Shown here piece by piece: positions 32,774 through 53,952 of a DNA stretch of 53,952 nucleotides. Numbering within the stretch: position 1 is the stretch's first letter; every line of letters begins with the position of its first letter. Origin of the DNA: Clostridia bacterium (GTDB lineage Bacteria; Bacillota; Clostridia; Oscillospirales; Acutalibacteraceae); assembly GCA_017626295.1 (NCBI GenBank), contig JAGAJB010000040.1, positions 1 to 53,952 on the forward strand. Reading direction: 5' to 3'. Both the position numbers and the translations under genes were made by a program. Under the pieces are notes generated by a model. The model did no database searches, was not told the origin of the DNA, and saw only the letters and a list, made by a program, of their open reading frames with translations.

Positions 32774-32801
32774 AATATATCCCTCGCAAAAGGGATATAT
32801 T
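32774..32801 (-). terminator. Terminator after the minus-strand XRE gene
   Basis: AATATATCCCT (32774-32784) and AGGGATATATT (32791-32801) form an 11-bp stem immediately downstream of the agrD-agrB-XRE operon on the minus strand. The T tract is weak. Confidence 0.6.
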
Positions 32802-32807
32802 CTTATA

Positions 32808-33733: not shown

Positions 33734-33863
33734 TTTTTTTGAATTCCTTTAGTTTTTGAGGAATTTTAGGTTGAAATGCAGCTAATGTGCTTGTTGAATT
33801 TGCATCAACTTTCAAAGAAAAATTGATAACATTTATTATTTTGGATACTAAGTTTTTTTTCAT
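33723..33863 (-). CDS. agrD: AgrD-like autoinducer propeptide lacking cysteine
   Basis: A 46-residue peptide begins at 33863 behind a perfect AGGAGG site. It has the AgrD layout: an amphipathic N-terminal helix (KKNLVSKIINVINFSLK), a short core around ANSTSTLAAF (residues 21-30) and the conserved C-terminal recognition part QPKIPQKLKEFKK. Clostridial AgrDs normally have Cys at the ring position; here Thr26 occupies it, with Ser23 and Ser25 close by, so a lactone rather than a thiolactone must form if the signal is cyclic. Overlap with agrB and the typical size make the call firm despite its shortness. Confidence 0.85.
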   Translation of the reverse strand: MKKNLVSKIINVINFSLKVDANSTSTLAAFQPKIPQKLKEFKKNDK

Positions 33864-33881
33864 GTCTTCACCTCCTAATAT

Positions 33882-33938
33882 TTTATACAATAGATTGTAA
33901 GAACAATCAACAAAACTTGTATGTAAGCTTGTTTTGTT
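33882..33938 (-). promoter_or_regulatory. agrD promoter with operator-like inverted repeat
   Basis: On the minus strand TTGATT (33905-33910), a 17-base spacer and TATAAA (33882-33887) form a promoter. Overlapping its -35, AACAAAAC (33909-33916) and GTTTTGTT (33931-33938) form a perfect 8-bp inverted repeat with 14 bases between, a candidate binding site for one of the local XRE regulators. Confidence 0.6.
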
Positions 33939-34004
33939 TACAAAACTCCGTATTTTTCAAATATAACCCCAAAAAAAGAAAATCAATTGCAAATTTTTGA
34001 AGCG

Positions 34005-34030
34005 AAACCACAAGTTTTGAAGTGTGGTTT
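34005..34030. repeat. Short hairpin in the agr intergenic region
   Basis: AAACCACA (34005-34012) and TGTGGTTT (34023-34030) are perfect inverted copies followed by T-rich sequence on the plus strand, between the divergent agrD and XRE genes. Confidence 0.45.
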
Positions 34031-34077
34031 TATTTATTTGGTAGTTTACAAATGTTACTATATTGAGGGGTGATAAT

Positions 34078-34395
34078 ATGAGAATTTATGGTAATGATTT
34101 AATTGGTTTACGGATCGCTAAGATTAGAAAATTAAATAAACTTACTCAAGCCGAATTTGCAGAGCGAATAGATTTATCACCAACAGAAATATCAAACATA
34201 GAAAGAGGCAAGAATAGCATATCGTTTAACACACTCGTTAATATCTGTAACGAATTTGATGTTTGTCCGTGCCAAATTCTTTCAGGTGCAATAAAAGATG
34301 AAATTGACAATAATATTGTAGACTTAATAAGAGAACTTAATAAAGAAGAACAAAAAATCGTTTATAAACTTTTATTAGCTTATTTGGATAGGTGA
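34078..34395 (+). CDS. XRE-family helix-turn-helix regulator upstream of agrAC
   Basis: A 105-residue protein with a Cro/CI-type helix-turn-helix (LIGLRIAKIRKLNKLTQAEFAERIDLSPTEISNIERGK region) and a C-terminal helical tail (IRELNKEEQKIVYKLLLAYL). The ATG at 34078 follows GAGGGG; a TTG at 34063 is rejected. It is divergent from agrD and separated from agrA by its own terminator. Two XRE genes bracket the agr locus, suggesting control by the element as well as by the peptide. Confidence 0.85.
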   Translation: MRIYGNDLIGLRIAKIRKLNKLTQAEFAERIDLSPTEISNIERGKNSISFNTLVNICNEFDVCPCQILSGAIKDEIDNNIVDLIRELNKEEQKIVYKLLLAYLDR

Positions 34396-34410
34396 AAATT
34401 CAAATACGAT

Positions 34411-34439
34411 TTGAAAAACCAAAAAATCTATGCTATAGT
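34411..34439 (+). promoter_or_regulatory. agrAC promoter
   Basis: TTGAAA (34411-34416), a 17-base spacer and TATAGT (34434-34439) with an extended TGC. The transcript would start inside the hairpin 34441-34467. Confidence 0.6.
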
Positions 34440-34440
34440 A

Positions 34441-34475
34441 AAACTCAAAGTAGTATGCTTTGAGTTTTCTTTTTT
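34441..34475 (+). terminator. Terminator hairpin before agrA
   Basis: AAACTCAAAG (34441-34450) pairs with CTTTGAGTTT (34458-34467) and leads into a T-rich tract. It ends the XRE transcript and lies directly in front of the agrA ribosome site. Confidence 0.8.
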
Positions 34476-34489
34476 AGGAGTTGATACAT

Positions 34490-35197
34490 ATGACAATCAA
34501 TGCTTTGATTTGTGATGATGAAAAAAGCTGTTGTGATATAGTATTACAATATCTTTTAAAATATTGTGACGAAAGGAATTTCACATGTTTCTATGATGTA
34601 TACGACAATGGAGAAGAAGCTCTATTATCAGATAAAACATATAACATCGCTTTTTTAGACATTGAAATAAAAAATATTTCCGGTTTGGATATAGCTAAGC
34701 ATTTAAAAGAAATAAACAAGAATGTAATCATTTTCTTTATAACAGAATATGAGAAATATATAGATGATGCCATGGATTTGTTTGCATTGCGTTTTATTAA
34801 AAAACCACTTGATTATTCAAGATTTTATAGCGGACTTGATAAAGCTATTGAACTAATAAATGAAGATGATGTTGAATTTTATTTAAAGGATACTAATAAA
34901 ATATTAAAAATAAAATCCAAAGATATTATGTTTATTGAAACACTTGATCATAAAACCAAAATTGTAACCCCTGATGCTATATATTATTCTTCCGAATTGA
35001 TTGACTATTGGCATAAAAAATTAACTCACAGCAGTTTTTATAGAGTACACAAAAGTTATATAGTCAATTTAGATTACATTAATGAATACAAGCGTAACGA
35101 AGTGAAATTGATAAATGGAGAAATTATTGGTATCTCATACCGAAACCAACCGGATTTCAGAAAATACTTTTTTAATTACTTGAAAAGGAGAAAATAA
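34490..35197 (+). CDS. agrA: AgrA-like response regulator (REC-LytTR)
   Basis: A 235-residue response regulator. The receiver domain has the acidic pair D9-D10 (LICDDEKS), the phospho-acceptor D57 in FLDIEI, and the conserved KKP in RFIKKPLDY. The C-terminal half is a LytTR DNA-binding domain (IETLDHKTKIVT, FYRVHKSYIVNLDYI). The ATG at 34490 behind TAGGAG is preferred to the TTG at 34481. It is followed at once by the agrC-like kinase. LytTR proteins bind direct repeats about 21-22 bases apart; such a pair occurs at 36579-36610. Confidence 0.92.
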   Translation: MTINALICDDEKSCCDIVLQYLLKYCDERNFTCFYDVYDNGEEALLSDKTYNIAFLDIEIKNISGLDIAKHLKEINKNVIIFFITEYEKYIDDAMDLFALRFIKKPLDYSRFYSGLDKAIELINEDDVEFYLKDTNKILKIKSKDIMFIETLDHKTKIVTPDAIYYSSELIDYWHKKLTHSSFYRVHKSYIVNLDYINEYKRNEVKLINGEIIGISYRNQPDFRKYFFNYLKRRK

Positions 35198-36496
35198 ATG
35201 CATTCAGTATTTTTAAATATATTGTTACAAACAATAGAGTGCTTGGTGTTTTTTGATTTTAACGAAAACATAAAAAGAACTAATACGAAAATTAGAAATT
35301 TTTCGATAATGTTTTTGGGGTATATGATAATGTGTGCAATTAATGTTATCTTCTCTTATAACATTATAGTGAATTTTATAGCTTTTTCACTTTTCCATTT
35401 TTGTTTTTTCCATTTTTTGTATAAACATAAAAGGTTATTTGCTGTAATATACACACTTTTACTTGCATGTATAGTACTTATTACTGAACAAAGTGTTATT
35501 GAACTTATTGCAATAGTAAACAATAGTGCCACACAGGATTTTATAAATGATCCATATTCTTATATAGTTTTAATCGTTTTAAGCAAATCATTGCTTTTTA
35601 TGTTTTTTAAAATTGTTTCAAATATAATCAACAAATTTAAATCTAATGATGAATTTCATTTTAATAATTTAGTTTATCCCTCATCTCTAATGCTGATTCT
35701 TCTCGATTTTACTATTCTATCAAATCACACTAATTTGACTAAGAATATACGAATATTATTAGCTGTATCAAGTGTTTTCTTAGTAATAGCAGTTATAACT
35801 ACTTGCATTTTTCAACAAAAACAAATCCAAAAAGAACAAGAATTAATTGAATTAAAAGCAATTCAACAAGAACAGGAATTAAATAGAACATATTTTGACT
35901 TATTAGAACACCAAAATGAGGAATTACAAGTTTTTGTGCATGATACTAAAAAGCATTATCGAACATTATACGATTTAGCTGAGAATCCCGATAAGTTAAA
36001 AGAATATATTGAAGGAATTGTCACCGATCTCGAAGAGGCCAACCAAATTGGTAAAACCTCAAATAAATTACTTGATTTAATCATTAGCAAATATAACTAT
36101 ATATGTGAAAAAAAAGGAATTGTTTTTGAAAAGAATATTCATCAATCAAATCTCAGCTTTATAAGTGATAATGATTTAACTTCTATTTTTAACAACTTAT
36201 TTGATAATGCTGTAGAGGCGGCGAAAGTCAGCCATAATAAATCAATTTTCTTTGGATTAAATAAAGTAGGTAATATGTTGGTAATTGATATAACAAATTC
36301 TTGCGATACACCACCGATAGTGAAAAACCACAAATTAATCTCAACCAAAAATGATGCAGGTTTACATGGCTATGGATTTAAAAGTATTTGCAGAGCAGTA
36401 AAAAAATACAATGGTGATATCGAGTGGGAATACAAACCTGAGACTAAAGAATTTGTTGTTTCAATAATATTCCCTGTTCATTCTAACTTGATATAA
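35198..36496 (+). CDS. agrC: AgrC-like sensor histidine kinase
   Basis: A 432-residue kinase with six or so hydrophobic helices in the first 205 residues (peptide-sensing membrane domain), a coiled-coil linker (QKQIQKEQELIELKAIQQE), and a HPK10-type catalytic part. The likely phospho-histidine is H248 in FVHDTKKHYRTL. The ATPase domain shows LFDNAVEAA (N box) and GLHGYGFKSI (G box). It starts right after agrA with GGAGAAAA upstream. The extracellular ligand should be the processed AgrD peptide. Confidence 0.92.
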   Translation: MHSVFLNILLQTIECLVFFDFNENIKRTNTKIRNFSIMFLGYMIMCAINVIFSYNIIVNFIAFSLFHFCFFHFLYKHKRLFAVIYTLLLACIVLITEQSVIELIAIVNNSATQDFINDPYSYIVLIVLSKSLLFMFFKIVSNIINKFKSNDEFHFNNLVYPSSLMLILLDFTILSNHTNLTKNIRILLAVSSVFLVIAVITTCIFQQKQIQKEQELIELKAIQQEQELNRTYFDLLEHQNEELQVFVHDTKKHYRTLYDLAENPDKLKEYIEGIVTDLEEANQIGKTSNKLLDLIISKYNYICEKKGIVFEKNIHQSNLSFISDNDLTSIFNNLFDNAVEAAKVSHNKSIFFGLNKVGNMLVIDITNSCDTPPIVKNHKLISTKNDAGLHGYGFKSICRAVKKYNGDIEWEYKPETKEFVVSIIFPVHSNLI

Positions 36497-42108: not shown

Positions 42109-45100
42109 ATGAAGAAAATAATAAGCTCTATTTTATGTGTTTCATTACTTGCATCAATAATATGTATTCCTGTTTCAGCAACGGATGAAGTTGTTGTTTC
42201 AGAAAGCATAGAAGAATTCTGCGAAGATGTAAATGAAATGATAAAGGAATACAGTGATTCCGAGTTTGTTACTCCCGATTTCATTGAGGAAGAACAAACA
42301 ACAGAAAATACCGAGCAAGAAATTGAAATAAATTACTGTCCCCGTCTAATAGTCCAGTCAGACAAACCAATTGATACATATAACGCCATTGATGTTGTAA
42401 GTGGTTTTTCTAATTTCCATATTGTTCAGTTTGAAAACGAAGATGATACAAACTACGCCTACGATAAATATAGAAATAATTCTGATGTTATTTCTGTTGA
42501 ATATGATATTTCTTACAATGCATTTACATATACAACTGAAGATAATACAAAAAAGAATACCGAAATGACTTTTGAAGACTACGAAAATGGTTGGTATTTA
42601 AATGAAACGGGTTTAGATTATATTCTTAATAAATATCAAAAAAGTGAACTTCCCGAAGTTGTAATAGCTGTAATAGATACTGGTGTAGATTTAAATAATG
42701 AATATATTAGTGACAGAATAATTCCAACCAAATTCAATAATTCCGGTGAAGACGACCAAGCAAGCGAACAAGACTTTTATGGTCACGGCACAATGATAAC
42801 AAGTCTAATAAAAAATTGTACAACTAAAAATGTAAAGGTTGCTAATTTTAGATGTGGAACCTCAAAAGGACATATTACAATGACATCAGCTTGTGCTGCA
42901 ATAATGGCTGCTGTAAATTTTGGTGTTGATATAATTAATTGTAGCTTTACTGTTAGCAATACATTTGCTTTAGTTCAGGAAACTATAGATTATGCCTATG
43001 AGCAATCATGTGCTCTTTTTGCAGCAGCGGGAAACCGAACCGGTGACTTAGAATTATTTTCCAGCCCTTTAACAACTTCGGCTATCTGCGTCGGTTCATC
43101 CAACAGATTTTATACACCATCAAGTTTTACGGCTTGGGGAAAGTATTGCGATATCTTAGCCCCTGGTGAAGATATGCCGTTATATGATTTAAATAATGAA
43201 ATCATATCAGTTGATGGTACTTCTTTTTCTTCACCGTTTATGGCAAGTTTATTTGCTATGCATTTATCAATATATCCAACAATACCATTCAAAGAGCGAA
43301 TAAGAATAATAACTTCTACAGGAAGTGGATCTGATGAAGATTATGTTTCAGAATATTTTGGTAGCGGTATTGTAAATGTACCAAAACTCTTTTCGTTTAA
43401 TGGTTTGGAAGAACCTCAATTTAATTATTCTGATGGTAAATATGTTGGTAAAGTATCTCTTGAAATCACGGCAGAAGATAGTTCAGATATTTATTATACA
43501 ACTGATGGTACATACCCATCTAAAACCAATGGGAAACTGTATACAGAAACAATCGAGTTTGAGGATGATTGGTTGACCATCAGAGCCATAGCTTATAAAA
43601 ATGAGCAAAGAAGCAATTTAAACACTTTAGATATTTGTTCAGCTGTACTTGGAACAGACGATATGTTTACTGTAAATGAAGACGGTGTTTTAACCGGATA
43701 TACCGGTAAAGTTAAATACTTGAAAATTCCAGAAGTCATAAATGGTATAACAGTAAAAGAAATCTCCTTTTATAGTGGTTTTAACACAACAGAAATTTAT
43801 GGAGTAATTCTTCCTGATACAGTTGAATATCTGGGGTGGACGATTGATAAATATGATAGACCTACCACATTAGAGGAACAAATCGGTGCTTTTCAATTAA
43901 ATGAAACAATCGAATTTTTGGTTGGAAAAGGTATTAAAGTTCTAGGTTATTATGCTGTATCTCATATACCTAATATATACGAGGTTGATTTCCCTAATTG
44001 CGAAACTATTATGAGTCAAGCATTTACTGATTGCGGACTATTAGGTGCTCGATTCCCAAAAGTAAAGAGTATAGATAATCAAGCTTTCTACAATAATGTT
44101 AGATTAAGAGAAATATATTTACCCGAATGTATTGGTCTAGGGTATGGAACTTTTTATCAATGCTTACGTCTAAAAGAAATATATGCTCCCAAAGCTGATT
44201 ATCTTCCATTACAAGAATTCGAGGAAAATAGTTTTACTCAAGATAATTCTAATGCAACAAGAAATCTGTTTTATGATTGCTCAAGATTAACAGAACTTGA
44301 TTTACCAAACATTGAAACAATCGGTTATGGTTCGTTTACTGAATCATCTTTAAAAGAACTTGAATTATCGAATATTGAGTATATATATGATTTACCTGAT
44401 ACAATACTGTATAGGAGTGAAAGTTTAGGAAACGCATCTTATTTTTCTCCTTACTTTTATCCTATTCAGGTCACTCTTTCTCTCCCTTCAACTTTACAAT
44501 ACTGTATATCTGCAACCGATTACAAAAATGAATTTATTGAATATGTGGTTTACGGCACAGCGGGTAAAGGAAGCTATGCTGAGCAATGGGCAGAGAAAAA
44601 TGGTGTTCAGTTCATAAACATATCGCAAGAAACTGCCATTGTTGAGGATATTGAGCCCATTTGGGATAAATATTCATACGAACCACTTGAATTTGATGCA
44701 CGTGGTTTCAACCGAACTTATCAATGGTATGGTTCAAAGGATAAAATTCAAGGCAACTATGATGATAAACCTATAACGAATGCAACGGACAAGACATTTA
44801 ATCCTGATAATTACAAGTCATACCCGTATTATTACTGCATTATGACAAGTTCGGATAAAGATGTTCAAGGTAAAATTACTAGTCAAGTTGAAATTAAAAG
44901 TTCTATGTGTCAGAACAGACTTTATTATATGTTTTCACTTCCCAATACACACATTGATTTTGACAACTATTTAATTTATACCCAAACAACCGGTTGTAAG
45001 AATTTCTTTAATATCATTGAAATTCAGGAAAACACAAGCTATTCTTCTTTACCGTCTTTGGTATATAAAGAATATTATTGGTATGGAACTGGTTCTGAGT

Positions 45101-45327
45101 TTGTTATATACAATGGAACAAAAAAAGAAAGATATACACTAATTGTTGAAGGTGATGTAGATGGAGATAGCGCTGTAGATGTATTAGATGCTTATCAAGT
45201 TTCGTTAGTCGTTAACGGACATACAGAATTAACTGACGAGTACTTACTTGCAGCAGATACAAATTTAGACCAAGAAATAACGGTTGAAGATTATGCTCAG
45301 GTTGTTAATTTGGTTTTAGCAGGTTAA
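42109..45327 (+). CDS. Secreted subtilisin-like protease with leucine-rich repeats and dockerin
   Basis: A 1072-residue S8 peptidase. It has a Sec signal peptide (MKKIISSILCVSLLASI...VSA), and a propeptide-like domain to about residue 140. The catalytic triad is complete: D190 (VIDTGVD), H226 (GHGT) and S372 (GTSFSSP). Residues about 430-510 are a chitobiase-like beta domain (DIYYTTDGTYPS). Residues about 530-830 are BspA/LRR_5-type repeats (LPDTVEYLG, CLRLKEIYAPKAD). The final 60 residues are a type I dockerin with two calcium-binding repeats (GDVDGDSAVDVLDAYQ and ADTNLDQEITVEDYAQV). The dockerin implies attachment to a scaffoldin on the cell surface. It directly follows the RHS gene and may process it. 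Confidence 0.92.
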   Translation: MKKIISSILCVSLLASIICIPVSATDEVVVSESIEEFCEDVNEMIKEYSDSEFVTPDFIEEEQTTENTEQEIEINYCPRLIVQSDKPIDTYNAIDVVSGFSNFHIVQFENEDDTNYAYDKYRNNSDVISVEYDISYNAFTYTTEDNTKKNTEMTFEDYENGWYLNETGLDYILNKYQKSELPEVVIAVIDTGVDLNNEYISDRIIPTKFNNSGEDDQASEQDFYGHGTMITSLIKNCTTKNVKVANFRCGTSKGHITMTSACAAIMAAVNFGVDIINCSFTVSNTFALVQETIDYAYEQSCALFAAAGNRTGDLELFSSPLTTSAICVGSSNRFYTPSSFTAWGKYCDILAPGEDMPLYDLNNEIISVDGTSFSSPFMASLFAMHLSIYPTIPFKERIRIITSTGSGSDEDYVSEYFGSGIVNVPKLFSFNGLEEPQFNYSDGKYVGKVSLEITAEDSSDIYYTTDGTYPSKTNGKLYTETIEFEDDWLTIRAIAYKNEQRSNLNTLDICSAVLGTDDMFTVNEDGVLTGYTGKVKYLKIPEVINGITVKEISFYSGFNTTEIYGVILPDTVEYLGWTIDKYDRPTTLEEQIGAFQLNETIEFLVGKGIKVLGYYAVSHIPNIYEVDFPNCETIMSQAFTDCGLLGARFPKVKSIDNQAFYNNVRLREIYLPECIGLGYGTFYQCLRLKEIYAPKADYLPLQEFEENSFTQDNSNATRNLFYDCSRLTELDLPNIETIGYGSFTESSLKELELSNIEYIYDLPDTILYRSESLGNASYFSPYFYPIQVTLSLPSTLQYCISATDYKNEFIEYVVYGTAGKGSYAEQWAEKNGVQFINISQETAIVEDIEPIWDKYSYEPLEFDARGFNRTYQWYGSKDKIQGNYDDKPITNATDKTFNPDNYKSYPYYYCIMTSSDKDVQGKITSQVEIKSSMCQNRLYYMFSLPNTHIDFDNYLIYTQTTGCKNFFNIIEIQENTSYSSLPSLVYKEYYWYGTGSEFVIYNGTKKERYTLIVEGDVDGDSAVDVLDAYQVSLVVNGHTELTDEYLLAADTNLDQEITVEDYAQVVNLVLAG

Positions 45328-45339
45328 AGGAGGATTGAT

Positions 45340-45798
45340 ATGAAAAAAATAATAAGCATTTTATTGTTAGTCATTGCTATCTTATGTTTTTCGGCTTGCT
45401 CTGATAAAGACACAAATAATGCAGACATTAAAAATACAACAGAGGTTATTGTGACCTTCCCAAACAGAACTACTACTGAAAAACAAGTCTTAGAAGATTC
45501 TGTTTATGAAAAAGTTTATTTTGAAATGTTCGGCAATAAGGTTAATGCAACTATAAGCCAAGAATTAAATGACCAACTTGAAAAAGCCAAGACAATAAAA
45601 GAACCCATTTTAGACGATTCTATGAAAGAAATTGGTTCTGTATGGGTTCAATATAAAAACAGTAATGAAATGGTAGAGTTCGGCAAAGTATATACCGGTG
45701 CCGAAAATAAAATGTATATTCAAGCTTTTGAAAACGAACACAATGGCGTGTTGTGTATTTCAGAAGGAAATGATAACCGCTCTAACATTTTATTCTAA
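45340..45798 (+). CDS. Small lipoprotein
   Basis: A 152-residue protein with a type II signal peptide: MKKIISILLLVIAILCFSAC, where the Cys begins the mature lipoprotein. The remainder is hydrophilic and without recognised domain. It follows the subtilase by 12 bases with AAAGGAGG, so it belongs to the same operon. It could be an immunity or anchoring factor for the RHS/protease pair; nothing proves this. Confidence 0.75.
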   Translation: MKKIISILLLVIAILCFSACSDKDTNNADIKNTTEVIVTFPNRTTTEKQVLEDSVYEKVYFEMFGNKVNATISQELNDQLEKAKTIKEPILDDSMKEIGSVWVQYKNSNEMVEFGKVYTGAENKMYIQAFENEHNGVLCISEGNDNRSNILF

Positions 45799-45878
45799 TC
45801 CAAAACAAGACAAAGATAATTAACACAATTTGTGTGTTACCATATTAAAAATAATTTTAGTTCACCATAAAACAAATT

Positions 45879-45923
45879 GCAGAGATTATCGTTACTAATT
45901 ACAGATACGATAATCTCTGCTTT
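45879..45923 (+). terminator. Terminator of the RHS-subtilase-lipoprotein operon
   Basis: GCAGAGATTATCGT (45879-45892) and its exact complement (45907-45920) form a 14-bp stem ending in TTT. Confidence 0.8.
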
Positions 45924-45976
45924 CATAAAAGTAACGCTAAAACGACAGCAAAACCTACAAATCGACAAAGTTTGTT

Positions 45977-46064
45977 TTGTGCAAAAAGTAGAAAGTAATA
46001 AAAAGAAGCAAAAAATGCAAAAAAATTGTGAAGTATTCCTCGAAAAACGTCATATATAGATAGA
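45977..46064 (+). promoter_or_regulatory. Promoter-like module A (shared with 47436-47514)
   Basis: The 18-mer TTGTGCAAAAAGTAGAAA (45977-45994) is followed, after an A-rich spacer, by GAAGTATT (46030-46037), a CTCGAAAA segment and GTCATATATA (46049-46058), then TAGA. The same words in the same order precede the cyclase-like gene. GTGAAG and CATATA, 17 bases apart, would be the -35 and -10. It lies about 80 bases before the second subtilase. Confidence 0.6.
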
Positions 46065-46141
46065 GACTATATATAAAATTATAGTAATACTATAAATATA
46101 GCTTTATATTCACTAATAATTTAACAAAAACGGATGATTCA

Positions 46142-47395
46142 ATGATTCAAAATGTAAACAACAAATTTCAGAATACTACTCCGCCTTATTCTGAATTAAA
46201 AGGTTTTTCAAAAGAAGTTTTACAATTTGTAAACCACTATAATTTCAATAATAACAATGAAATAAAAGATTCCTTTCAAAAGCATTTTACATCAAAACGA
46301 CTGATTGTTTACGCTGATGTAGCTTTTGATAAATATAGAGCAATAGACCATATTTCAGGCTATGGTGATATGCATATATTACAGTATGCCACTCCCCTTG
46401 ATGCCTTCTCAGCTTTCACCAAATACAACAAAAATCCTAACATAAAACTTGTTGTTCCAGATATTGTAATTGAACTGGAAAAGACACACTCATCTGATAC
46501 GTCAAAACTTTCGCTTCACAGAGCTGAAATTCAGCACTCTTGGGGATATGAGCGTATCAAAACCGAAGAAGCATTTGAATACATATTAAAAGGCAAAACC
46601 CTTAATGATTTACCTGATGTTGTAGTAGGTATAATCGATGACGGTGTTGAAATGGGAAATGATGACTTTTCTAATAGACTTGTAGCCGCTTACAGTTTCA
46701 CGGAAGAACCTGAAAATCCTTTTACTTCCAGTATAGGACACGGAGCGAGGGTATGTAGTGTCCTGATGGAAAACACTCTCCCTAATGTGAAGTTTATATC
46801 ATACAAAATTTTTAGTGCTAGTGAAACAACATTATCCATTTTGCATTTGGCTGAAATGCAAGCAGAACTTGATGGCGTAGATTTTATAAACAGTAGTTAT
46901 GGTATGTTTGCTAAATTCAATAGCGGGATATCAAAACCATTACACATTGCATCTGTCGGCAATGTCAGAAGTGAGCAACCACAATACCCTGCCGCCTGTA
47001 ATGGTGTTATATCTGTTACTGCAATTAATCAATCCGAAAAATTATACAAAAATGCAGCTTTCGGTGATTGGGTAAAAGTAGCCGCACCGGGAGAAAATCT
47101 CAAACTACCATCCACATATGCCGATGGAGATTATGTTGAGTTTACGGGAACCTCCTGTGCTGCACCATTTGTAACCTCAATTTGTGCAATGATTAAGACT
47201 CAACACCCCAATTTAAACAACGAACAAATAAAGCAGGTTCTATATGACTCTTGCGAAATAACTGATATACCAGTTAGGTACGGGATTGTTAATATGTTTA
47301 ATGCCGTTAGTTATTTGGATAATGTGACACAACCTGAGGTTGCTGAACAAATTGTTGATTTCACGCTTCCAAAAACCGAACCAGCTTTAGTTTAA
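46142..47395 (+). CDS. Subtilisin-like protease without signal peptide
   Basis: A 417-residue S8 peptidase paralogous to the secreted one at 42109, sharing the unusual propeptide-like domain (KRLIVYADVAFDKYRAIDHISGYGDMHI versus the RLIVQSDKPIDTYNAIDVVSGF type of the first, shown in outline). The triad is intact: D166 (IIDDGVE), H200 (GHGAR) and S338 (GTSCAAP). There is no signal peptide, membrane segment, dockerin or repeat region, so it should be cytoplasmic. Its promoter module is shared with the next gene. An intracellular protease in this setting could activate or destroy a partner protein. Confidence 0.88.
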   Translation: MIQNVNNKFQNTTPPYSELKGFSKEVLQFVNHYNFNNNNEIKDSFQKHFTSKRLIVYADVAFDKYRAIDHISGYGDMHILQYATPLDAFSAFTKYNKNPNIKLVVPDIVIELEKTHSSDTSKLSLHRAEIQHSWGYERIKTEEAFEYILKGKTLNDLPDVVVGIIDDGVEMGNDDFSNRLVAAYSFTEEPENPFTSSIGHGARVCSVLMENTLPNVKFISYKIFSASETTLSILHLAEMQAELDGVDFINSSYGMFAKFNSGISKPLHIASVGNVRSEQPQYPAACNGVISVTAINQSEKLYKNAAFGDWVKVAAPGENLKLPSTYADGDYVEFTGTSCAAPFVTSICAMIKTQHPNLNNEQIKQVLYDSCEITDIPVRYGIVNMFNAVSYLDNVTQPEVAEQIVDFTLPKTEPALV

Positions 47396-47435
47396 CTGAT
47401 ATATAGCAAATTCCGACAAATCTCGCAACATTACC

Positions 47436-47514
47436 TTGTGCAAAAAGTAGAAAAGATAAAAATTATAAAATTTTTTTGAAGTATTTCGCGAAATTTGTCA
47501 TATATAAGTAGAAC
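47436..47514 (+). promoter_or_regulatory. Promoter-like module B (shared with 45977-46064)
   Basis: TTGTGCAAAAAGTAGAAA (47436-47453), GAAGTATT (47478-47485), a palindromic TTTCGCGAAA and GTCATATATA (47497-47506) repeat module A with a shorter spacer. TTGAAG and CATATA, 17 bases apart, would be the -35 and -10, with the TCGCGA palindrome between them as a possible operator. It lies about 55 bases before the cyclase-like gene. Confidence 0.62.
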
Positions 47515-47566
47515 AATTTTGCGCATCTTCACTGACGTAAGTATTAATTGTAAGGAGATATTTGAA

Positions 47567-48343
47567 ATGAAGTTTTATGAAAATAGATTTATAGTATTCT
47601 TAGATATTTTAGGTTTTAAAGAGTTGGTAAAAAAAACAACACAAGATGAGAGCAATTTTGAAACTATAAGCAAGGTTTTAAATTATATATCAGAAGTTAG
47701 AAATGAAAATTATCATGGCTTTCTTGCTCAATACGATACAATCAAAAAAGAAGTTTCTGTATTTTCTGATAGCATTGTTATATCATATCCTGGTGACACT
47801 AGAGGCGGACTTTTTTTCTTATTAATGGATTTAGTATTTATTTGTTTGCAACTCAATTTTAATGGAATTTTTGTTCGTGGTGGAGTAACTTTTGGTTCAT
47901 TGTATCACAAAAGGAATGTTTGTTTTGGTCCTGCCATGATTGCTGCATATGAAATGGAGCAAAAGTTTGCTATCACACCTAGAATTATTGTGGATACTTT
48001 AGCTATTACCAATGGATTAAAATCACCAGGATATGCTAATTCCTTTGAAGAAGAAGCTGATTATATTGGAGGTTTATTAAAACAAGATGAAGATGATAAC
48101 TGGTTCTATTTAGATTATTTGTCTCAGAGAGAAGAATTAGATTTTCCAGAAGAATATCCATATTTTCTTAATGAAATTAAATCTTCAATTATTAAAAATT
48201 TAATCGAAGCAAAAGATGATACTAATATTTATAGTAAGTATGTATGGTATGCAAAATATTATAACCGTACCATAGAAAACTTATATGGTAATTGCATTGA
48301 ATTAAGAAGTGAATTATCAATTGATGAAAAATTATACAAATGA
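47567..48343 (+). CDS. Class III nucleotidyl-cyclase-like protein
   Basis: A 258-residue cytoplasmic protein. Its motifs line up with the class III cyclase fold: VFLDILGFKELV supplies the first metal-binding Asp, VFSDSIVIS the second, and RGGVTFGSLYH then FGPAMIAAYEMEQKFAITPRIIVD follow the usual later strands. Many uncharacterised proteins start with FLDILGF, so enzymatic activity is not assured. The ATG at 47567 with AAGGAG is preferred to an upstream frame start. It reads directly into the left 53-bp repeat, 16 bases after its stop, with no terminator. It is the fixed first gene of the invertible locus and could make a nucleotide signal, as in Pycsar-type defence, though no such system is established here. 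Confidence 0.6.
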   Translation: MKFYENRFIVFLDILGFKELVKKTTQDESNFETISKVLNYISEVRNENYHGFLAQYDTIKKEVSVFSDSIVISYPGDTRGGLFFLLMDLVFICLQLNFNGIFVRGGVTFGSLYHKRNVCFGPAMIAAYEMEQKFAITPRIIVDTLAITNGLKSPGYANSFEEEADYIGGLLKQDEDDNWFYLDYLSQREELDFPEEYPYFLNEIKSSIIKNLIEAKDDTNIYSKYVWYAKYYNRTIENLYGNCIELRSELSIDEKLYK

Positions 48344-48359
48344 AAATCAAAAACAAATG

Positions 48360-48412
48360 AAGGATAATAACAAATTATCAGTTTAAAGGATGTGCATTTA
48401 TGTCTGGTTTTA
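48360..48412 (+). repeat. Left 53-bp inverted repeat (IR-L) of invertible segment
   Basis: A 53-base sequence beginning AAGGATAATAAC and ending GTCTGGTTTTA, identical on the opposite strand at 50444-50496. It includes a small palindrome GATAATAACAAATTATC, a ribosome site (AAAGGATG), an ATG and the codons for MSGF. It is thus a portable expression start. The palindrome has the size and layout of a tyrosine-recombinase crossover site. Confidence 0.93.
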
Positions 48413-49230
48413 ATATTTTTGAAAAAGAAAATGTTTCGTTATATTTAGATGATTTGACATTATTACAAGATGTTTCAAGTGAACTTCAAAGTGTTCAATT
48501 ATATAAACACCCGAATCTTGAAAAGGTCTTGGTAATCAACGATGAAATTCAACATGTTGAAAATTGGATGCCGTATTATCATGAGCAACTTGTTCATATT
48601 CCAATGATGTTTATTAAAGTTCCACGCAATGTATTGATTTTAGGTGGGGGAGATCTTTTTGCTGCATCAGAGGTTTTTAAATATGATTCAGTCAAGCAAC
48701 TTGTATTGTGTGATTATGATAAAAATGTGATTGAGTTAACTAGTAAACACTATTCACATTCAGAAAAAGTTCTTGAAGATTCAAGGCTTAAAATATGCAT
48801 AGATAATGCTATAAACTATATCAATAACTGTACCGAAAAATTCGATCTAATAATTGATGATTGTTTTAATTTAGTCGACACTTTCGATTCTTGTCATATT
48901 TTCGAAAAATTGAAATCATTACTAACACCAGAAGGTGTTTGTTGTAGTTTGGTATACCGTCATGTGTTTGACAAAGATACGATGAATAAAACAAAAACTA
49001 GACTTTTTGATACTCAAAAAACGGTACTTTCTTTAATTACAGTACCTGAATATCCAGGGGTATTGCATTTACTTACAATATGGGGAAACTCATCATTTTT
49101 AGATCAAAATCTAAAAAAAACCATCAATACTAACCACTCTGTCTTATTTAACAGTAAATGTACTCTTTTTAATAGTGATTTTTGTAATTTTTATATGTAC
49201 TTACCTCCGTATGTAAAAAAACTGTTATGA
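48400..49230 (+). CDS. Divergent spermidine-synthase-like aminopropyltransferase (phase-ON orientation)
   Basis: A 276-residue protein with the spermidine synthase (SpeE) fold: an N-terminal beta domain, KVLVINDEIQHVENWMPYYHEQLVHIPM, and a Rossmann methyltransferase-like domain with VLILGGGDLFAASEV, VLCDYDKNVIEL and LIIDDCFN. Canonical SpeE has GGGDGG and DSTDP-type motifs; here the second Gly pair and the catalytic Asp region are altered, so the acceptor is probably not putrescine. Its start codon and ribosome site lie inside the left inverted repeat. The next gene supplies decarboxylated SAM, the aminopropyl donor. Product unknown. Confidence 0.8.
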   Translation: MSGFNIFEKENVSLYLDDLTLLQDVSSELQSVQLYKHPNLEKVLVINDEIQHVENWMPYYHEQLVHIPMMFIKVPRNVLILGGGDLFAASEVFKYDSVKQLVLCDYDKNVIELTSKHYSHSEKVLEDSRLKICIDNAINYINNCTEKFDLIIDDCFNLVDTFDSCHIFEKLKSLLTPEGVCCSLVYRHVFDKDTMNKTKTRLFDTQKTVLSLITVPEYPGVLHLLTIWGNSSFLDQNLKKTINTNHSVLFNSKCTLFNSDFCNFYMYLPPYVKKLL

Positions 49231-50443
49231 AAGAGGTGGAGTTATGAAGTATCTTTTTTCTGGTACACATATAATATGTGATCTGTATGGCACAAGAGAA
49301 GGCTTGTGCTTAAATGGCAATATTTGCAAACTTGCAGTAGAAAAAGCTATACATAATGCTGGCGCTCATGTAATTGAAACGATTATATATACATTTGATT
49401 CTGGCGGTTTTACATTACTCTCTCTTTTGAAAGAGTCTCACGTTTCTATACATACATACCCCGAAAGCAATTCACTTTTTGTAGATGTTTTTACTTGTGG
49501 TAGTACTAACCCACAAAAAATCATCAATGAATTAATTACTTATTTTCAACCAAATAAATGTGTAACTAAAAAAATAAGCAGAGGAGCTAAAAAAACCTCT
49601 TTTTAAATTTAATATCATCTGTAGGAGCACGCAAATCATCAAAAAAAACTTTTACATTATCCCAGGCTTGATTTCTTTGGATATTTGATAAACATATCTG
49701 CAATTCGTCAAGTCTATCCAAATATCCGTACTGTAAAAGGTATTGCTCATCTTTATCATCTGTTACTGCCCAAGGTGTTGCTAACAAACTACAAGTTTTA
49801 TCTTTTTTTATCAATTTAACCGAATTGATATTAATATATGGTAACTTGGAATAATCTATTGAATTTAAACGAATACCAGCTCTTTGTGCAATGTTTTGTG
49901 CTACAAAACCATGTTGTGCAGGACACAACTCAACGGTACCTGTAACAATGGCTCTTGCTGCAAAAAAATCTTTTTCAAAGAAATCTGGAATAATATCTTT
50001 TATTTTTTTTGTGGGCACTACACCTATTATACCTTCACCGATATATCCATAACGATAATATAATCCAACCATTGTCTCACCATTAAAACTACCTATTCTC
50101 AAAGTTTCATCAGCACCAACATAAAATTCCATAGCTTGATATTCTTGAGCAGAAACTTTACCTTCAAAAGTGTAAAGATTCCTCCACAATGTTGCGTTTT
50201 CAAATGGATCACATGGAAATAATTGCGTGTATGGTGATATTATACACTCAAGTTTTACCCTATCGCCAATTTCGATTGCATGATTATGAATCCCTCTTTT
50301 CCATAAATCCATAGGACTTTCAAAAGTGTTTTGTTTGTAAAATTTTGATGAGATTTGTTTTACTGTAAAAGCACCAATTGCACCTACTATAGTTTCGGCA
50401 GTTGCTTCAAGTAAAGGTTCCCATAAAAACGATGTTTCTGTAA
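48413..50443. mobile_element. 2.0-kb candidate invertible DNA segment
   Basis: The stretch between the two perfect 53-bp inverted repeats contains speE-like and speD on one strand and an unrelated gene on the other, tail to tail. Inversion by the adjacent tyrosine recombinase would exchange which coding region follows the fixed upstream promoter and cyclase-like gene, while keeping ribosome site and start codon. Confidence 0.8.
49244..49606 (+). CDS. speD: S-adenosylmethionine decarboxylase proenzyme
   Basis: A 120-residue class 1B AdoMet decarboxylase. Autocleavage occurs at E64-S65 in KESHVSIHTYPE, making the pyruvoyl group at S65; H70 and C85 (DVFTCG) match the processing and proton-donor residues of the family. 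It makes decarboxylated SAM for the upstream aminopropyltransferase-like enzyme. AGAGGTGGAG precedes the ATG, 13 bases after the speE-like stop. Its end overlaps the end of the convergent gene by 20 bases. It lies inside the invertible segment. Confidence 0.92.
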   Translation: MKYLFSGTHIICDLYGTREGLCLNGNICKLAVEKAIHNAGAHVIETIIYTFDSGGFTLLSLLKESHVSIHTYPESNSLFVDVFTCGSTNPQKIINELITYFQPNKCVTKKISRGAKKTSF

Positions 50444-50456
50444 TAAAACCAGACAT
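49587..50456 (-). CDS. Hypothetical protein in the phase-OFF orientation
   Basis: A 289-residue protein with no family I recognise. It starts MSGFITETSFLWEPLLEATA, its first four residues being encoded by the right inverted repeat, exactly as for the SpeE-like gene. A short hydrophobic stretch (ETIVGAIGAFTVKQI) near residue 20 could be a membrane or amphipathic helix. The rest is mixed alpha/beta (IGDRVKLECIISPYTQLFPCD, VGLYYRYGYIGEGIIGVV). As drawn it has no promoter: the only transcription that could enter, from the recombinase gene, is stopped by the terminator at 50502-50536. It would be expressed after inversion of 48413-50443. Confidence 0.8.
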   Translation of the reverse strand: MSGFITETSFLWEPLLEATAETIVGAIGAFTVKQISSKFYKQNTFESPMDLWKRGIHNHAIEIGDRVKLECIISPYTQLFPCDPFENATLWRNLYTFEGKVSAQEYQAMEFYVGADETLRIGSFNGETMVGLYYRYGYIGEGIIGVVPTKKIKDIIPDFFEKDFFAARAIVTGTVELCPAQHGFVAQNIAQRAGIRLNSIDYSKLPYININSVKLIKKDKTCSLLATPWAVTDDKDEQYLLQYGYLDRLDELQICLSNIQRNQAWDNVKVFFDDLRAPTDDIKFKKRFF

Positions 50457-50496
50457 AAATGCACATCCTTTAAACTGATAATTTGTTATTATCCTT
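50444..50496 (-). repeat. Right 53-bp inverted repeat (IR-R) of invertible segment
   Basis: Exact reverse complement of 48360-48412 over 53 bases. It carries the ribosome site, ATG and first codons of the minus-strand gene. The bases on both outer sides differ from those of IR-L, which marks the limits of the repeat. Confidence 0.93.
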
Positions 50497-50501
50497 TAAA
50501 A

Positions 50502-50536
50502 GAAAAAACCTTCCACACAACAATTGTGCAGAAGGT
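50502..50536 (-). terminator. Terminator of the tyrosine recombinase, insulating the invertible segment
   Basis: On the minus strand ACCTTCTGCACAA pairs with TTGTGTGGAAGGT (50524-50536 and 50507-50520) and runs into six T residues, a few bases before IR-R. It prevents recombinase transcripts from entering the segment. Confidence 0.88.
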
Positions 50537-50544
50537 ATTGGTAA

Positions 50545-51447
50545 TCAAAGTATTATCTTGTTTCTTGGATGTTTTTCTTCAAGAAGCTTATGTATCTTGT
50601 TTGTACTGATGTGAGTGTAGATTTGGGTTGTTGAAATTGAACTGTGGCCAAGCAGTTGTTGAATATACCTAATATCTACATCTTCATCATGCAGAGCCGT
50701 AGCAAAGGTGTGACGGAACATATGAGGTGTTATATGTTGTGTTACACCGGCTGCGCAGGCATAGTTGTTCACCATATTTCTTATTGATTGTTCGGACAAC
50801 CTGTTTCCCAAACGATTGGTAAACATATAGCTTGATGTTTTATTTTGAGTGTTTATATATTCAGTTAAGAGTTGCAGAATAGAATCATTTGTAATACACA
50901 TCATTCTTTCTTTTGAACCTTTACCAAATATACGGATTGTACCATCTATTAAATTGATATCATTAACAGACAAATGTGAAATCTCTGATACACGCATTCC
51001 TGTTGAAAATAACATTTCTAAAATTAGTACATCTCGTAATCTTGTTTTTCTTTGAACAACTGTTTTACTGTCCTCTTTTTGATTATAGGAAAAAACTAAA
51101 ATGTTTTTTATATCATTTAGAGCAATAGTTTTAGGTAGTACAATTGGTTCTTTATATTTGATTTTTATTTTGTGAAATGGATTGTATTCTATGATATCCT
51201 CCATTTCCAAATATCTATAAAAGGCTTTCAAACACGCTATTTTTCTTTTAGCGCTTTTAAGACTGTATGCTTTATATAAATGGTCAATGTATGTGGTCAT
51301 ACACTCTTTAGAAAGCCAGTCCAAATCATTGGCATATTCTTGATATTGTTTTAAATCAATCTTATATGCCTTTATTGTCAGTTTGCTTAAACCTTTTAGG
51401 TTTTCACAAACTGCAATATATTTGTTAATTTCAGATTGTAAACTCAC
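50545..51447 (-). CDS. Tyrosine recombinase (XerC/XerD-like invertase)
   Basis: A 300-residue tyrosine recombinase with a SAM-like N-terminal core-binding domain (LTIKAYKIDLKQYQEYA) and the catalytic domain: Arg in STGMRVSEISHL, Lys in RIFGKGSKERM, HMFRHTFAT (HxxR), LGHSSISTTQIYTHI with the final His and the Tyr nucleophile. Size and motifs match Xer-like recombinases that drive phase-variable inversions in gut bacteria. The GTG start at 51447 has GGAGG 8 bases upstream; a TTG at 51453 is too close. It lies 48 bases outside IR-R. Confidence 0.93.
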   Translation of the reverse strand: MSLQSEINKYIAVCENLKGLSKLTIKAYKIDLKQYQEYANDLDWLSKECMTTYIDHLYKAYSLKSAKRKIACLKAFYRYLEMEDIIEYNPFHKIKIKYKEPIVLPKTIALNDIKNILVFSYNQKEDSKTVVQRKTRLRDVLILEMLFSTGMRVSEISHLSVNDINLIDGTIRIFGKGSKERMMCITNDSILQLLTEYINTQNKTSSYMFTNRLGNRLSEQSIRNMVNNYACAAGVTQHITPHMFRHTFATALHDEDVDIRYIQQLLGHSSISTTQIYTHISTNKIHKLLEEKHPRNKIIL

Positions 51448-51593
51448 TGACAAAACCTCCGTTTTTTATGTAATTATGACGGATAAGTTTCGTCTTGTCG
51501 AGTATACATAAATAAAATTTTATAGATAAATTATTTTTAAACACTATGGGGTGGTGGCTAAAAACACCCTCTCCCATAAAAAAGGAGTATCTT

Positions 51594-52511
51594 ATGGAAC
51601 AAATTTATAAAATATTCTCTAGTTTATCAAGTTGTGATGCTTGGAGCGTTTTTTTATTGAAAATCAAAGAAACGGAATCTATACAATATGAAAGTCACAA
51701 AATCACTTTATCTCCTAACGGTATTATATCAGATTTCATTCGTGATTTAGTTGACAAATACACTAGATTTGATTCAGGTGTTCTTGGAATGTATGACGCT
51801 GTTGACGTATATGACGGTTCTTCTATAGGTACCAGTATATATAAATTCTCTACTGAAGATGACATAATTGAAGAAGCATACAATTCACTTACGCAAGCCA
51901 TCAAGAACTCGGAACGAGAAGGAAATCCAGAAAACGAAAGATTTAACGCATATTTTATTCAAGGTCTTATAAATTTTGATGAATCTGATCATCCAGTTAA
52001 ACTTTTTTCCTTACGTACACCAACTACTGTATTAAAAAATAGGTTTAGGTACAGAAATGGCGTTTACGAAGAACTGACAGATAGATTATTTACATTGCGT
52101 TCAACTATTGATGCAGTTATCGTAGATAACGACATTTATTTTTTGACAATGGATGCAGAAAAACTATTCGGAATAGAACGTGCTTACAAAAAAATATGTA
52201 ACAGTAAAGTAGAAGAGTTAATTACATGTTCTTTTATCAGTGATCCTGAGACATTTCAAAAAACAGCTACAAGTGGTCATAATCCAAGACGTTTTGCCTC
52301 ATATAACCAAAATCGTGTTAACCATCTTGGAAACGAAAGCGCTAGGGTCAAATGGGCAAATTATTTTGGTATAGGTCTAGATGGTTCTAATTTTGATACC
52401 AGTAATCCTACCAATATTGAAAAAATAATAAAACTAATTTGTAACAAAGGCATGGCTGACCCTTTCGAAGACGCCCCAGTAGAAGTTGCCGGTTCTAAGA
52501 AATGGAAATAA
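51594..52511 (+). CDS. kwaB: DUF4868 protein, KwaB-like (Kiwa anti-phage defence)
   Basis: A 305-residue cytoplasmic protein with the DUF4868 pattern: YFIQGLINFDESDHPVKLFSLRTPTTVL, then FTLRSTIDAVIVDNDIYFLTMDAEKLFGIERAYKK. KwaB of the Kiwa system is a DUF4868 protein of similar length that binds DNA and restricts phage together with the membrane sensor KwaA. The start at 51594 follows AAAAAGGAG; an in-frame ATG at 51546 lies in a GGGTGGTGG hairpin and is rejected. The next gene encodes a membrane protein that could be KwaA. Order here is kwaB-kwaA, the reverse of the described Kiwa operon. Confidence 0.72.
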   Translation: MEQIYKIFSSLSSCDAWSVFLLKIKETESIQYESHKITLSPNGIISDFIRDLVDKYTRFDSGVLGMYDAVDVYDGSSIGTSIYKFSTEDDIIEEAYNSLTQAIKNSEREGNPENERFNAYFIQGLINFDESDHPVKLFSLRTPTTVLKNRFRYRNGVYEELTDRLFTLRSTIDAVIVDNDIYFLTMDAEKLFGIERAYKKICNSKVEELITCSFISDPETFQKTATSGHNPRRFASYNQNRVNHLGNESARVKWANYFGIGLDGSNFDTSNPTNIEKIIKLICNKGMADPFEDAPVEVAGSKKWK

Positions 52512-52514
52512 AAT

Positions 52515-53081
52515 ATGAGTTCTTATGTATTTTTGTTTAGTGTATATTACATATCTTTTTTCCCATTATGGATTTCCATATTGTTTATTGATTGTACAAA
52601 CATTTTCTGCTCAAGCGATCCAAACATAATAACAGAAATTATAAGTATATTCGCTATACTTATAATTCTCCTACTTTGTTTAATTGTATTACACACAAGA
52701 ATGAAAAAGCAAAAAAGTGGAGATAATTGTGAAACATTCACACTATGTGAAGTGAAGTTAAACAAAAAAATTATTGTTGAATTTATCTTTACATTTGTTT
52801 TACCTCTAGCGGCATTTGATTTTTGTTCTTGGCAAGGCGTTGTATTGTTCGTTTTCTTCTTTTTGTTGCTCTTCCATATCTTAGTGTCGTTGTTTAATTA
52901 TCCTATGTTATGCTCTCTAGTCTTTTTCGGTTATAAAATATATGATTGTAAATATTTGGACATAGATAATAATATACACGAAGCAGCTTTTATATGTAAT
53001 AAAACGATTAAAGCCAATAAAAAAATTGTGGCGGATAATATAAGCAATGATTTTTATTTCATTGTTAAAACTGTTGAGTAG
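52515..53081 (+). CDS. KwaA-like membrane protein
   Basis: A 188-residue protein with four to five hydrophobic helices (about residues 3-26, 38-60, 88-106, 108-130 and 130-145). The segment VEFIFTFVLPLAAFDF in the third helix, followed by a GYKIYDCKY region, resembles KwaA-type membrane sensors. It begins three bases after the kwaB-like stop, so the two are coupled. In Kiwa, KwaA senses phage at the membrane and activates KwaB. Assignment rests on pattern and partner, not on a search. Confidence 0.62.
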   Translation: MSSYVFLFSVYYISFFPLWISILFIDCTNIFCSSDPNIITEIISIFAILIILLLCLIVLHTRMKKQKSGDNCETFTLCEVKLNKKIIVEFIFTFVLPLAAFDFCSWQGVVLFVFFFLLLFHILVSLFNYPMLCSLVFFGYKIYDCKYLDIDNNIHEAAFICNKTIKANKKIVADNISNDFYFIVKTVE

Positions 53082-53187
53082 ACAAGCTCAATGTAGCAAT
53101 GGTATTTTAGTAAAATGGATAAATCTCATATTAAGAGTTTTTCTTATTGCTAACTCACCACGTATAATGTATAACGAAATATTACTA

Positions 53188-53211
53188 CATAAGGCAACAT
53201 TTAGCCTTATG
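53188..53211. repeat. 8-bp hairpin between membrane-protein genes
   Basis: CATAAGGC (53188-53195) and GCCTTATG (53204-53211) are exact inverted copies. The space 53082-53267 shows no supported gene. Confidence 0.4.
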
Positions 53212-53267
53212 ATAGCAATACAAGGATTATAAAGTAAAAATAATACATTTTCAGGAGAAAAACATCA

Positions 53268-53819
53268 ATGAAAAAAAGATACATTAAAAAGCATAGATTT
53301 CTTGTTAGTGAATACTTTTACTCAAAACAAGCAAAAGAAAAATCATCCTTAGATAGAATTGTTCTTACAAGAAAAACGATTGATAACTTTTACGCAGATA
53401 TTATAGCAGATGAACTCGATTTACTTTTTTTGAAACTAAAACATGCTGAAAAGATTATGAAATTTTCAGAACTTAGTTTCAAAAACATTTCACTTCCATA
53501 TATAAGTGCTTGTATTTCAGCTACGATAAGTCTAATTGTTTCCTATACAACAAATATAAGTAGTAAGCTAACTGATATAAACAATATATTCCAATATATA
53601 GGCTTTTTGTTAGCGTACATTATAACTATTGTTCTTATCGTTGTACCAATAGGATTTATTATATGTCTAATTTTACGAAATATAATAAAAAATAGTAATA
53701 AAGATTATTTTGTGTACATATTACCTTACGAAATAAAGGTGATACGAACGACATTAGATAGGCTAATAGCTGAAGCAGGCCTTGATACAGATTTAAAATT
53801 CAATGAAAATAAAGGATAA
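53268..53819 (+). CDS. Two-helix membrane protein of unknown function
   Basis: A 183-residue protein: a basic N-terminus (MKKRYIKKHRF), a helical cytoplasmic part, two membrane helices (about residues 80-95 and 110-135: ISACISATISLIVSY and IGFLLAYIITIVLIVVPIGF), and a hydrophilic tail. A TTCAGGAG site precedes the ATG. It has no recognised family. Its position after the Kiwa-like pair suggests a defence or mobile-element role. Confidence 0.6.
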   Translation: MKKRYIKKHRFLVSEYFYSKQAKEKSSLDRIVLTRKTIDNFYADIIADELDLLFLKLKHAEKIMKFSELSFKNISLPYISACISATISLIVSYTTNISSKLTDINNIFQYIGFLLAYIITIVLIVVPIGFIICLILRNIIKNSNKDYFVYILPYEIKVIRTTLDRLIAEAGLDTDLKFNENKG

Positions 53820-53831
53820 CTAATAATTATC
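53812..53831. repeat. Sequence resembling the inverted-repeat crossover core
   Basis: AAGGATAA, six bases, ATTATC here has the same outer bases as AAGGATAA-TAACAA-ATTATC in the 53-bp repeats (48360-48379), with only the central six differing. It could be a second, diverged recombination site, or a chance AT-rich palindrome. Confidence 0.3.
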
Positions 53832-53907
53832 TTTTATAATTAATTGTATAACTATATTAATTATTCCGTATTTATCGGTCTAACGATGATGAGTAGGAGA
53901 TTTTAGT

Positions 53908-53952
53908 ATGCTAAGTCAAATTTATGCTATACCATGTAAAGTAAACAACCAA
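53908..53952 (+). CDS. Start of a gene running off the window
   Basis: An ATG with TAGGAG upstream opens a frame (MLSQIYAIPCKVNNQ) that continues past the end of the window. Too short to assign. Confidence 0.5.
   Translation, partial: MLSQIYAIPCKVNNQ

Follow-up and report, generated by a model that had tools for sequence, protein, structure and literature searches.

A candidate recombinase-driven inversion switch between two unrelated gene sets in a Clostridia bacterium, and its relatives

Shufflons, invertible hsdS genes and invertible tail-fibre segments exchange alleles or variants of one protein, and Xer/dif dimer resolution employs an XerC/D-like enzyme at an ATAA...TTAT core, dif being a single site with a 6-bp centre acted on by two recombinases. 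At the mba locus of Ureaplasma parvum, MBA and UU376 alternate by XerC-driven inversion, and inversion at the mba repeats was observed in Mycoplasma pneumoniae once xerC was supplied (PMC3599477). Here we analyse a 53,952-nt stretch of DNA from a Clostridia bacterium (contig JAGAJB010000040.1 of assembly GCA_017626295.1), referred to as the window, in which a segment bounded by inverted repeats at 48360-48412 and 50444-50496 very probably acts as a two-way inversion switch, offering either a SpeE-like gene with speD or the gene of an unrelated 289-residue protein.

The window shares with the MBA/UU376 system a Xer-type tyrosine recombinase, short inverted repeats and two opposed open reading frames (ORFs) expressed alternately, and its half-site AATTATC is also found in the mba repeats (PMC3599477). 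The Ureaplasma switch makes surface membrane proteins, and UU222, which encodes its recombinase, apparently lies away from UU375/UU376 (PMC3599477), whereas in the window the recombinase adjoins the switch, the cargo is a SpeE-like/SpeD set against a 289-residue protein, and relatives carry many other pairs. The RecV switches of C. difficile (PMC5903667, PMC5386303) are another case in Clostridia of DNA turned over site-specifically between short inverted repeats, sometimes by a tyrosine recombinase, but six of seven inversion clusters there are intergenic and one spans a small ORF (PMC5903667), while the window would exchange whole gene sets. As in shufflons and in invertible hsdS and tail-fibre segments (PMC11868660), coding DNA would be moved behind a fixed expression point; unlike in a shufflon, the two products share only their first four residues (MSGF) and are not homologous variants. 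The window departs from dif in having two inverted cores, each with 7 bp separating ATAA from TTAT, next to a single recombinase. The known inversion switches compared here turn promoters on and off or vary surface proteins. A literature search of titles and abstract beginnings, with most subscription papers outside its scope, found no description of this recombinase clade, core and cargo pattern, and no switch pairing STAND/TIR genes with enzymes. The principle of alternating opposed ORFs by inversion is already known; the family and its cargo look like a new variation on it.

The switch and its immediate flanks comprise the following features.

47567..48343, plus strand: 258-residue gene with no function assigned, a PHROG 23933 relative, ending 16 bp before the left arm
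48360..48412, plus strand: left repeat arm (inverted-repeat scan)
48363..48379, plus strand: core recombination site GATAATAACAAATTATC, centre AACAA (the same core form adjoins recombinases of the clade)
48400..49230, plus strand: SpeE-like aminopropyltransferase-type protein, 276 residues, promoter-proximal in the assembly (Pfam, NCBIfam and PDB sequence matches)
49244..49606, plus strand: SpeD-type S-adenosylmethionine (SAM) decarboxylase, 120 residues (Pfam; NCBIfam TIGR03330)
49587..50456, minus strand: 289-residue protein of no family, predicted silent in the assembly (profile searches; 51% identical homologue in genome G480)
50444..50496, minus strand: right repeat arm (inverted-repeat scan)
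50477..50493, minus strand: inverted copy of the core, same centre AACAA (the same core form adjoins recombinases of the clade)
50508..50536, minus strand: intrinsic-terminator-like hairpin with T run, 3' of the recombinase gene and facing the right arm (13 pairs, -16.6 kcal/mol)
50545..51453, minus strand: XerC/D-like tyrosine recombinase, 302 residues (Pfam Phage_integrase, 1.2e-42; NCBIfam)

The two arms are identical and form a perfect 53-bp inverted repeat, in agreement with a preliminary description made from this DNA alone. In a scan of 44000-53952 they stand out singly (48360-48415 / 50441-50496, 98% complementary), the runner-up being 41 nt long with 71% complementarity, and the arm is present twice in the 2.43-Mb assembly (42 contigs, 96% complete; E up to 0.001). 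From outside to inside, each arm holds AAG, the 17-bp core GATAATAACAAATTATC, a stretch bearing the ribosome-binding site (RBS) and ATG TCT GGT TTT; as that description had it, both arms carry the RBS as AAAGGATGTGCATTT-ATG-TCT-GGT-TTT, coding for MSGF. It had also called the gene sets unrelated past the repeat, and the products are indeed alike only over MSGF, one set matching the SpeE and SpeD families and the other no family. The two sets run towards each other, with a 20-bp overlap of their 3' ends. When the segment is inverted in silico, the 289-residue ORF begins at 48400, exactly the former SpeE-like start, the 276-residue ORF comes to lie at the other end, and all ORFs are intact in both orientations. 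The idea that both sets use the same start codon has to be modified: the core at 48363-48379 precedes, in the direction of reading, both RBS and ATG, and each gene therefore takes its own start codon along, in two identical copies, rather than meeting a fixed one.

The recombinase lies where it had been placed, its stop codon 48 bases beyond the right arm, and its Pfam match identifies it as a tyrosine recombinase. Residues R154, K178, H244, R247, H270 and Y279, which we take to be the catalytic ones, are invariant in 13 aligned sequences; an enzyme with its presumed catalytic residues intact adjoins the segment. Related loci were gathered by similarity rather than by site, through a DNA search with 47400-51600, in which those taken match in the recombinase gene, and through recombinase alignment, one such search providing the best 80 matches; L033 was reached via the 289-residue protein. 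The resulting clade set holds 51 loci. The count leaves out L052, which occupies the position of L257, and L040, for which the wider L233 stands in; the 51 are partly non-independent, L255 and L256 sharing 99.3% identity across 5000 bp. A maximum-likelihood tree, which left out the fragments L054 and L130, split 49 clade recombinases from 30 controls at 100/100 support and shows the clade only relative to these chosen controls. The three recombinases nearest to the window's are those of L042, L045 and L034, of which only L034 shows its cargo, unlike that of the window.

A core of the form GATAA-N7-TTATC adjoins the recombinase at many clade loci. Allowing at most one mismatch per core and at most one between cores, 150-7000 bp apart, we found inverted core pairs at 19 of the 51 clade loci (17 of 49 once the window, chosen for its repeat, and L033 are set aside, both of which entered the set by other routes). 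No such pair occurred among 142 distant Xer-type control loci, which are richer in GC on average than the clade loci (0.52 versus 0.42), including the 38 with GC below 42%; none occurred in the 51 reversed sequences, and the mean across 10 Markov resamplings was 0. Although one mismatch was allowed, the 5-bp centre is identical within all 19 pairs and varies between most loci, as expected if strand exchange needs a matching centre. A single core match was discarded as evidence, the pattern occurring at 4 places in the own genome versus 3 for a backward control.

Perfect terminal repeats bounding a compact 2.1-kb unit might recall a transposon-like unit carrying speE-speD and the 289-residue gene. 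We reject this explanation as hardly credible, since no transposase family matched inside the unit, the recombinase lies outside it, the genome holds two arms and the dif-like core within the repeats is common to loci with unrelated cargo.

The ends of contigs may offer a further, indirect sign of inversion. At 18 of 51 clade loci the recombinase is no more than 300 bp from a contig end, versus 21 of 142 controls (P=0.004), or at 15 of 45 versus 8 of 68 without viral records (P=0.008), and in 10 of those 18 clade loci a core with at most one mismatch is near the end. Assemblies should seldom break at repeats of 17-77 bp unless both orientations are present, other causes being possible.

From which side would the segment be transcribed? 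Under the rule that we used, a recombinase pointing at its repeat predicts a promoter outside the opposite repeat, and one pointing away predicts a promoter between recombinase and repeat. The predicted side outscored the other for promoters in 15 of the 19 paired loci, with 1 tie (Wilcoxon P=0.005). A score of at least 12, which sits between the 95th (10.9) and 99th (12.6) percentiles of random stretches, was reached on 9 of 19 predicted sides versus 2 of 19 other sides, examples being TTGACA-17-TATAAT plus TG in L258, TATAAT plus TG in L033 and TTGATA-17-TATTAT plus TG in L250. A one-sided hairpin with T-run of -14 kcal/mol or better is found in six of the 19 (the window, L033, L034, L036, L039 and L226), and in all six it lies opposite the promoter side predicted from the recombinase direction. 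On its terminator side, the window conforms to the switch layout.

The cargo pair of the window recurs in G480, a genome from another family of the same order, where homologues of the 289-residue protein (51%) and of the SpeE-like protein (46%) keep the same convergent layout; no SpeD was seen within the G480 segment. The recombinase there is 41% identical to the window's and far from it in the tree, and its inverted cores have another centre, CTGTA. Because the pair stays together while recombinase and core change, the comparison suggests that the two alternatives work as partners. The 289-residue protein was found in 2 of 394 sampled genomes of the order (the own genome and G480) and in 1 of 391 of the class (the own genome).

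The reading as an inversion switch is supported by the association of core pairs with the clade (19/51 versus 0/142), by the tendency of promoters and terminators to one side and by this recurrent pair. Several points weigh against it. The clade grouping by identity was set after part of the data had been viewed, and the promoter-side rule was framed after viewing the flanks of the pairs; the rule fails in L230, L036 and L128, with the tie in L034. The terminator hairpins of the relatives are counts without a null comparison. Under our criteria, 32 of the 51 clade loci have no pair; 18 of these 32 have their recombinase within 300 bp of a contig end, and the other 14 do not. Directly outside the left arm of the window there is no strong promoter (it scores 8.9 against a null median of 7.9). 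The window and G480 share one phase. No confirmed relatives of the 289-residue, SpeE-like or upstream proteins were found in viral contigs, and tblastn against plasmids and phages gave no match to the 289-residue protein. The segment in opposite orientation, which the preliminary description proposed to seek in relatives, did not appear: the viral, plasmid and phage searches brought no second copy of the element, and G480 has the same orientation. What stands of that description is the exchange of two gene sets, supported by comparative anatomy, from which we infer both that inversion occurs and which way it directs expression. Two of its details need amending: the start codon moves with each gene, and no strong promoter adjoins the left arm of the window. 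Because no strong local promoter was found, the left arm is likely fed by read-through from the upstream gene at 47567-48343, with the region 47400-47513 as the probable origin of that transcription.

In the inversion model, the XerC/D-like recombinase (50545-51453) would bind the inverted dif-like cores at 48363-48379 and 50477-50493, and strand exchange across the identical central bases would turn the segment over. As assembled, the segment would receive transcription from 47567-48343 through its left arm, and the SpeE-like protein and SpeD would be expressed; the 289-residue gene would face the terminator-shielded recombinase side and be silent. In the inverted orientation, the 289-residue gene would lie behind the same incoming transcription, with speE/speD silent. 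The outcome would be subpopulations having either a tailoring pathway dependent on decarboxylated SAM or the 289-residue protein, never both. The 258-residue upstream gene, absent beside the G480 switch, is on that ground not part of the core switch; its product has no credible match among PDB sequences (best E 0.11).

Across the relatives, ORFs run on both strands between or across the arms in 18 of the 19 pairs, the exception being L226. Pfam scans covered the main ORFs of the paired loci other than L033, L125 and the STAND homologue of L227, and other than the third L226 gene, the 172-residue ORF of L230 and the 252-residue ORF of L128. Enzyme families pass Pfam cut-offs on one side of 15 of the 19 loci, and the enzyme side of L033 is 46% identical to the window's SpeE-like protein. 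AAA/STAND, TPR or TIR matches (E up to 0.01) occupy the opposite side in L036, L037, L039, L050, L230, L251, L253, L257 and L258. With L227 added as STAND-like by homology to L039, 10 of the 19 loci set a STAND/TIR-like side against an enzymatic one, several of these labels being weak: a curated cut-off is passed on the receptor-like side only in L039, L230 (TPR), L251 and L257. Of the ten proteins tested with PADLOC, the TIR protein of L251 and the SEFIR-like protein of L226 were recognised and the eight others were not. The window and L033 have the 289-residue family. Among the remaining pairs are methyltransferases against proteins that look membrane-bound by eye (L034 and L128), an ATP-grasp protein against an 816-residue protein without Pfam match (L060) and a pentapeptide protein plus another against radical SAM/ATP-grasp (L229); L250 cargo has no Pfam matches. 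Among the matches listed, a STAND/ATP-grasp pair occurs in L036 and L041 and a STAND/carbamoyltransferase pair in L039 and L227. The STAND/ATP-grasp pair is in opposite phase in L036 and L041 relative to the inferred promoter side, L041 having imperfect cores (it is outside the 19) and a terminator judged by eye, and L036 a weak promoter.

L125 is a phage locus with repeat-like proteins by eye, in which one inverted core of 10332-13701 lies inside a 554-residue ORF. Recombinases of this clade may thus serve to vary a phage protein as well; a search of relatives for this locus in the other orientation returned L125 alone.

The segment might flip merely as an on/off switch for one functional set, with the other a decaying or irrelevant remnant. 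Cargo on one strand only in L226 and the STAND homologue of L227, which is split over two ORFs, would fit; we nonetheless regard this as very unlikely, as both sets are intact in the window, G480 retains the two side by side (46% and 51% identity), and ORFs occupy both strands in 18 of the 19 paired loci.

A more serious competitor is that the repeats are a relic or a point of cargo exchange, at which whole cargo modules are swapped between elements with no regulatory flipping. L037, L229 and L233 have much the same backbone, with 79-85% identity in alignment, and homology ends at or within a few bases of the L037 and L229 cores, with nothing beyond; the L231 contig begins at the point where the L037/L229 alignments stop. 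Such turnover of cargo at the core, the occurrence of the same cargo pair with distant recombinases, and a single core-like site on another contig (C24) before a GNAT-like gene 55% identical to L034 cargo are what exchange would leave. Even so, centre-matched inverted cores recur in 19 loci, 18 of them with ORFs on both strands, and exchange alone requires neither inverted, centre-matched pairs nor a promoter on one side and a terminator on the other. We consider this explanation unlikely.

With an inversion switch as the preferred reading, a recombinase clade with a recognisable core appears to toggle whole unrelated gene sets, repeatedly receptor-like versus enzyme. If it does, an isolate would contain two physiological types side by side, a mixture hidden by short-read assemblies, and the core motif together with the recombinase profile would offer a direct means of finding further switches and of testing which side is protective or signalling. 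A broader proposal, to which we give somewhat less than even credence, is a widespread mobile family of Clostridia switches in which an immune-receptor-like gene (STAND, TIR/SEFIR or, for example, the 289-residue protein) and a tailoring pathway (aminopropyl-, carbamoyl-, methyl- or glycosyltransferase, ATP-grasp or radical SAM) are mutually exclusive within a clone and the two sides are functional partners; for example, the pathway might make or modify a molecule to which the receptor would otherwise respond.

What the two sets of the window might do can be judged from their sequences. The plus-strand pair matches both families named for it at the outset, SpeE-like as Spermine_synth (9.1e-35, passing the family cut-off) and SpeD as AdoMet_dc (2.2e-28), and SpeD is above the curated TIGR03330 cut-off (92.8 versus 75.65 bits). 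The SpeE-like protein falls below both NCBIfam speE cut-offs (129.6 versus 249.55 and 144.6 versus 260 bits) and has DCFN where the best-matching solved spermidine synthase has DSSD, as does its G480 homologue. Because it is well below the spermidine synthase cut-offs and DCFN replaces DSSD, it is probably an aminopropyltransferase whose acceptor is not putrescine. The enzyme side of L258 includes, at 3219-4031, a nicotianamine-synthase-like gene (PF03059), a further instance of SAM-derived aminopropyl-type chemistry. The minus-strand protein is without family, as first described: it has no match in Pfam, PADLOC or NCBIfam (E up to 1) or in PHROGs (E up to 0.1), and no credible one among PDB sequences (best E 0.34). 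Its predicted structure, from a two-row alignment, had a mean predicted local distance difference test (pLDDT) score of 34 and was not used for fold search. A defence role is plausible, and not more, by analogy with its Kiwa-like neighbours and the receptor-like cargo in relatives.

Two further features flank the switch.

47400..47513, plus strand: probable control or promoter region of the upstream gene, its activity inferred (94% copy at 99522-99634 of contig C24 in the own genome, G000)
53815..53831, plus strand: further core-like site with the centre TAATA; an ORF start (53908) follows after 76 bp and the contig ends after 121 bp

A region of about 110 bp is repeated upstream of the switch, at 45954-46064 before a 417-residue subtilase gene and at 47413-47512 before the upstream gene of the switch, and the repetition suggests co-regulation of the two. 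On contig C24, a core-like site comes about 20 bp after the copy of 47400-47513 and precedes the GNAT-like gene. This locus (L264, 98233-100726) has a paralogous subtilase 60% identical to the product of window 46142-47395, then the promoter-like repeat, and has one core-like site before the GNAT-like gene that resembles the L034 switch cargo; no second core of the form GATAA-N7-TTATC was found on contig C24. L264 resembles half of a switch of this kind in fixed form.

Beyond the recombinase, 51594-53081 holds diverged KwaB-like and then KwaA-like genes, followed by a 183-residue gene without assigned function. Both Kiwa genes are below NCBIfam cut-offs (KwaA 44.7 versus 100 bits, KwaB 19.7 versus 200 bits); KwaB passes in Pfam (40.8, cut-off 26.3), and PADLOC gave 5.7e-10 for KwaA and 3.6e-07 for KwaB. 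The site at 53815-53831 and the ORF at 53908-53952 might mark the start of another invertible segment, with the Kiwa-like operon feeding it; one such site on its own can arise by chance. A large serine recombinase gene and AgrB-like, LytTR-regulator-like and sensor-kinase-like genes, recognised by eye at 29392-36496, suggest that a mobile element carries the switch. In 29000-53952, the sole Rfam match at gathering scores is a pemK RNA at 31553-31652 (RF02913, 55.2 bits).

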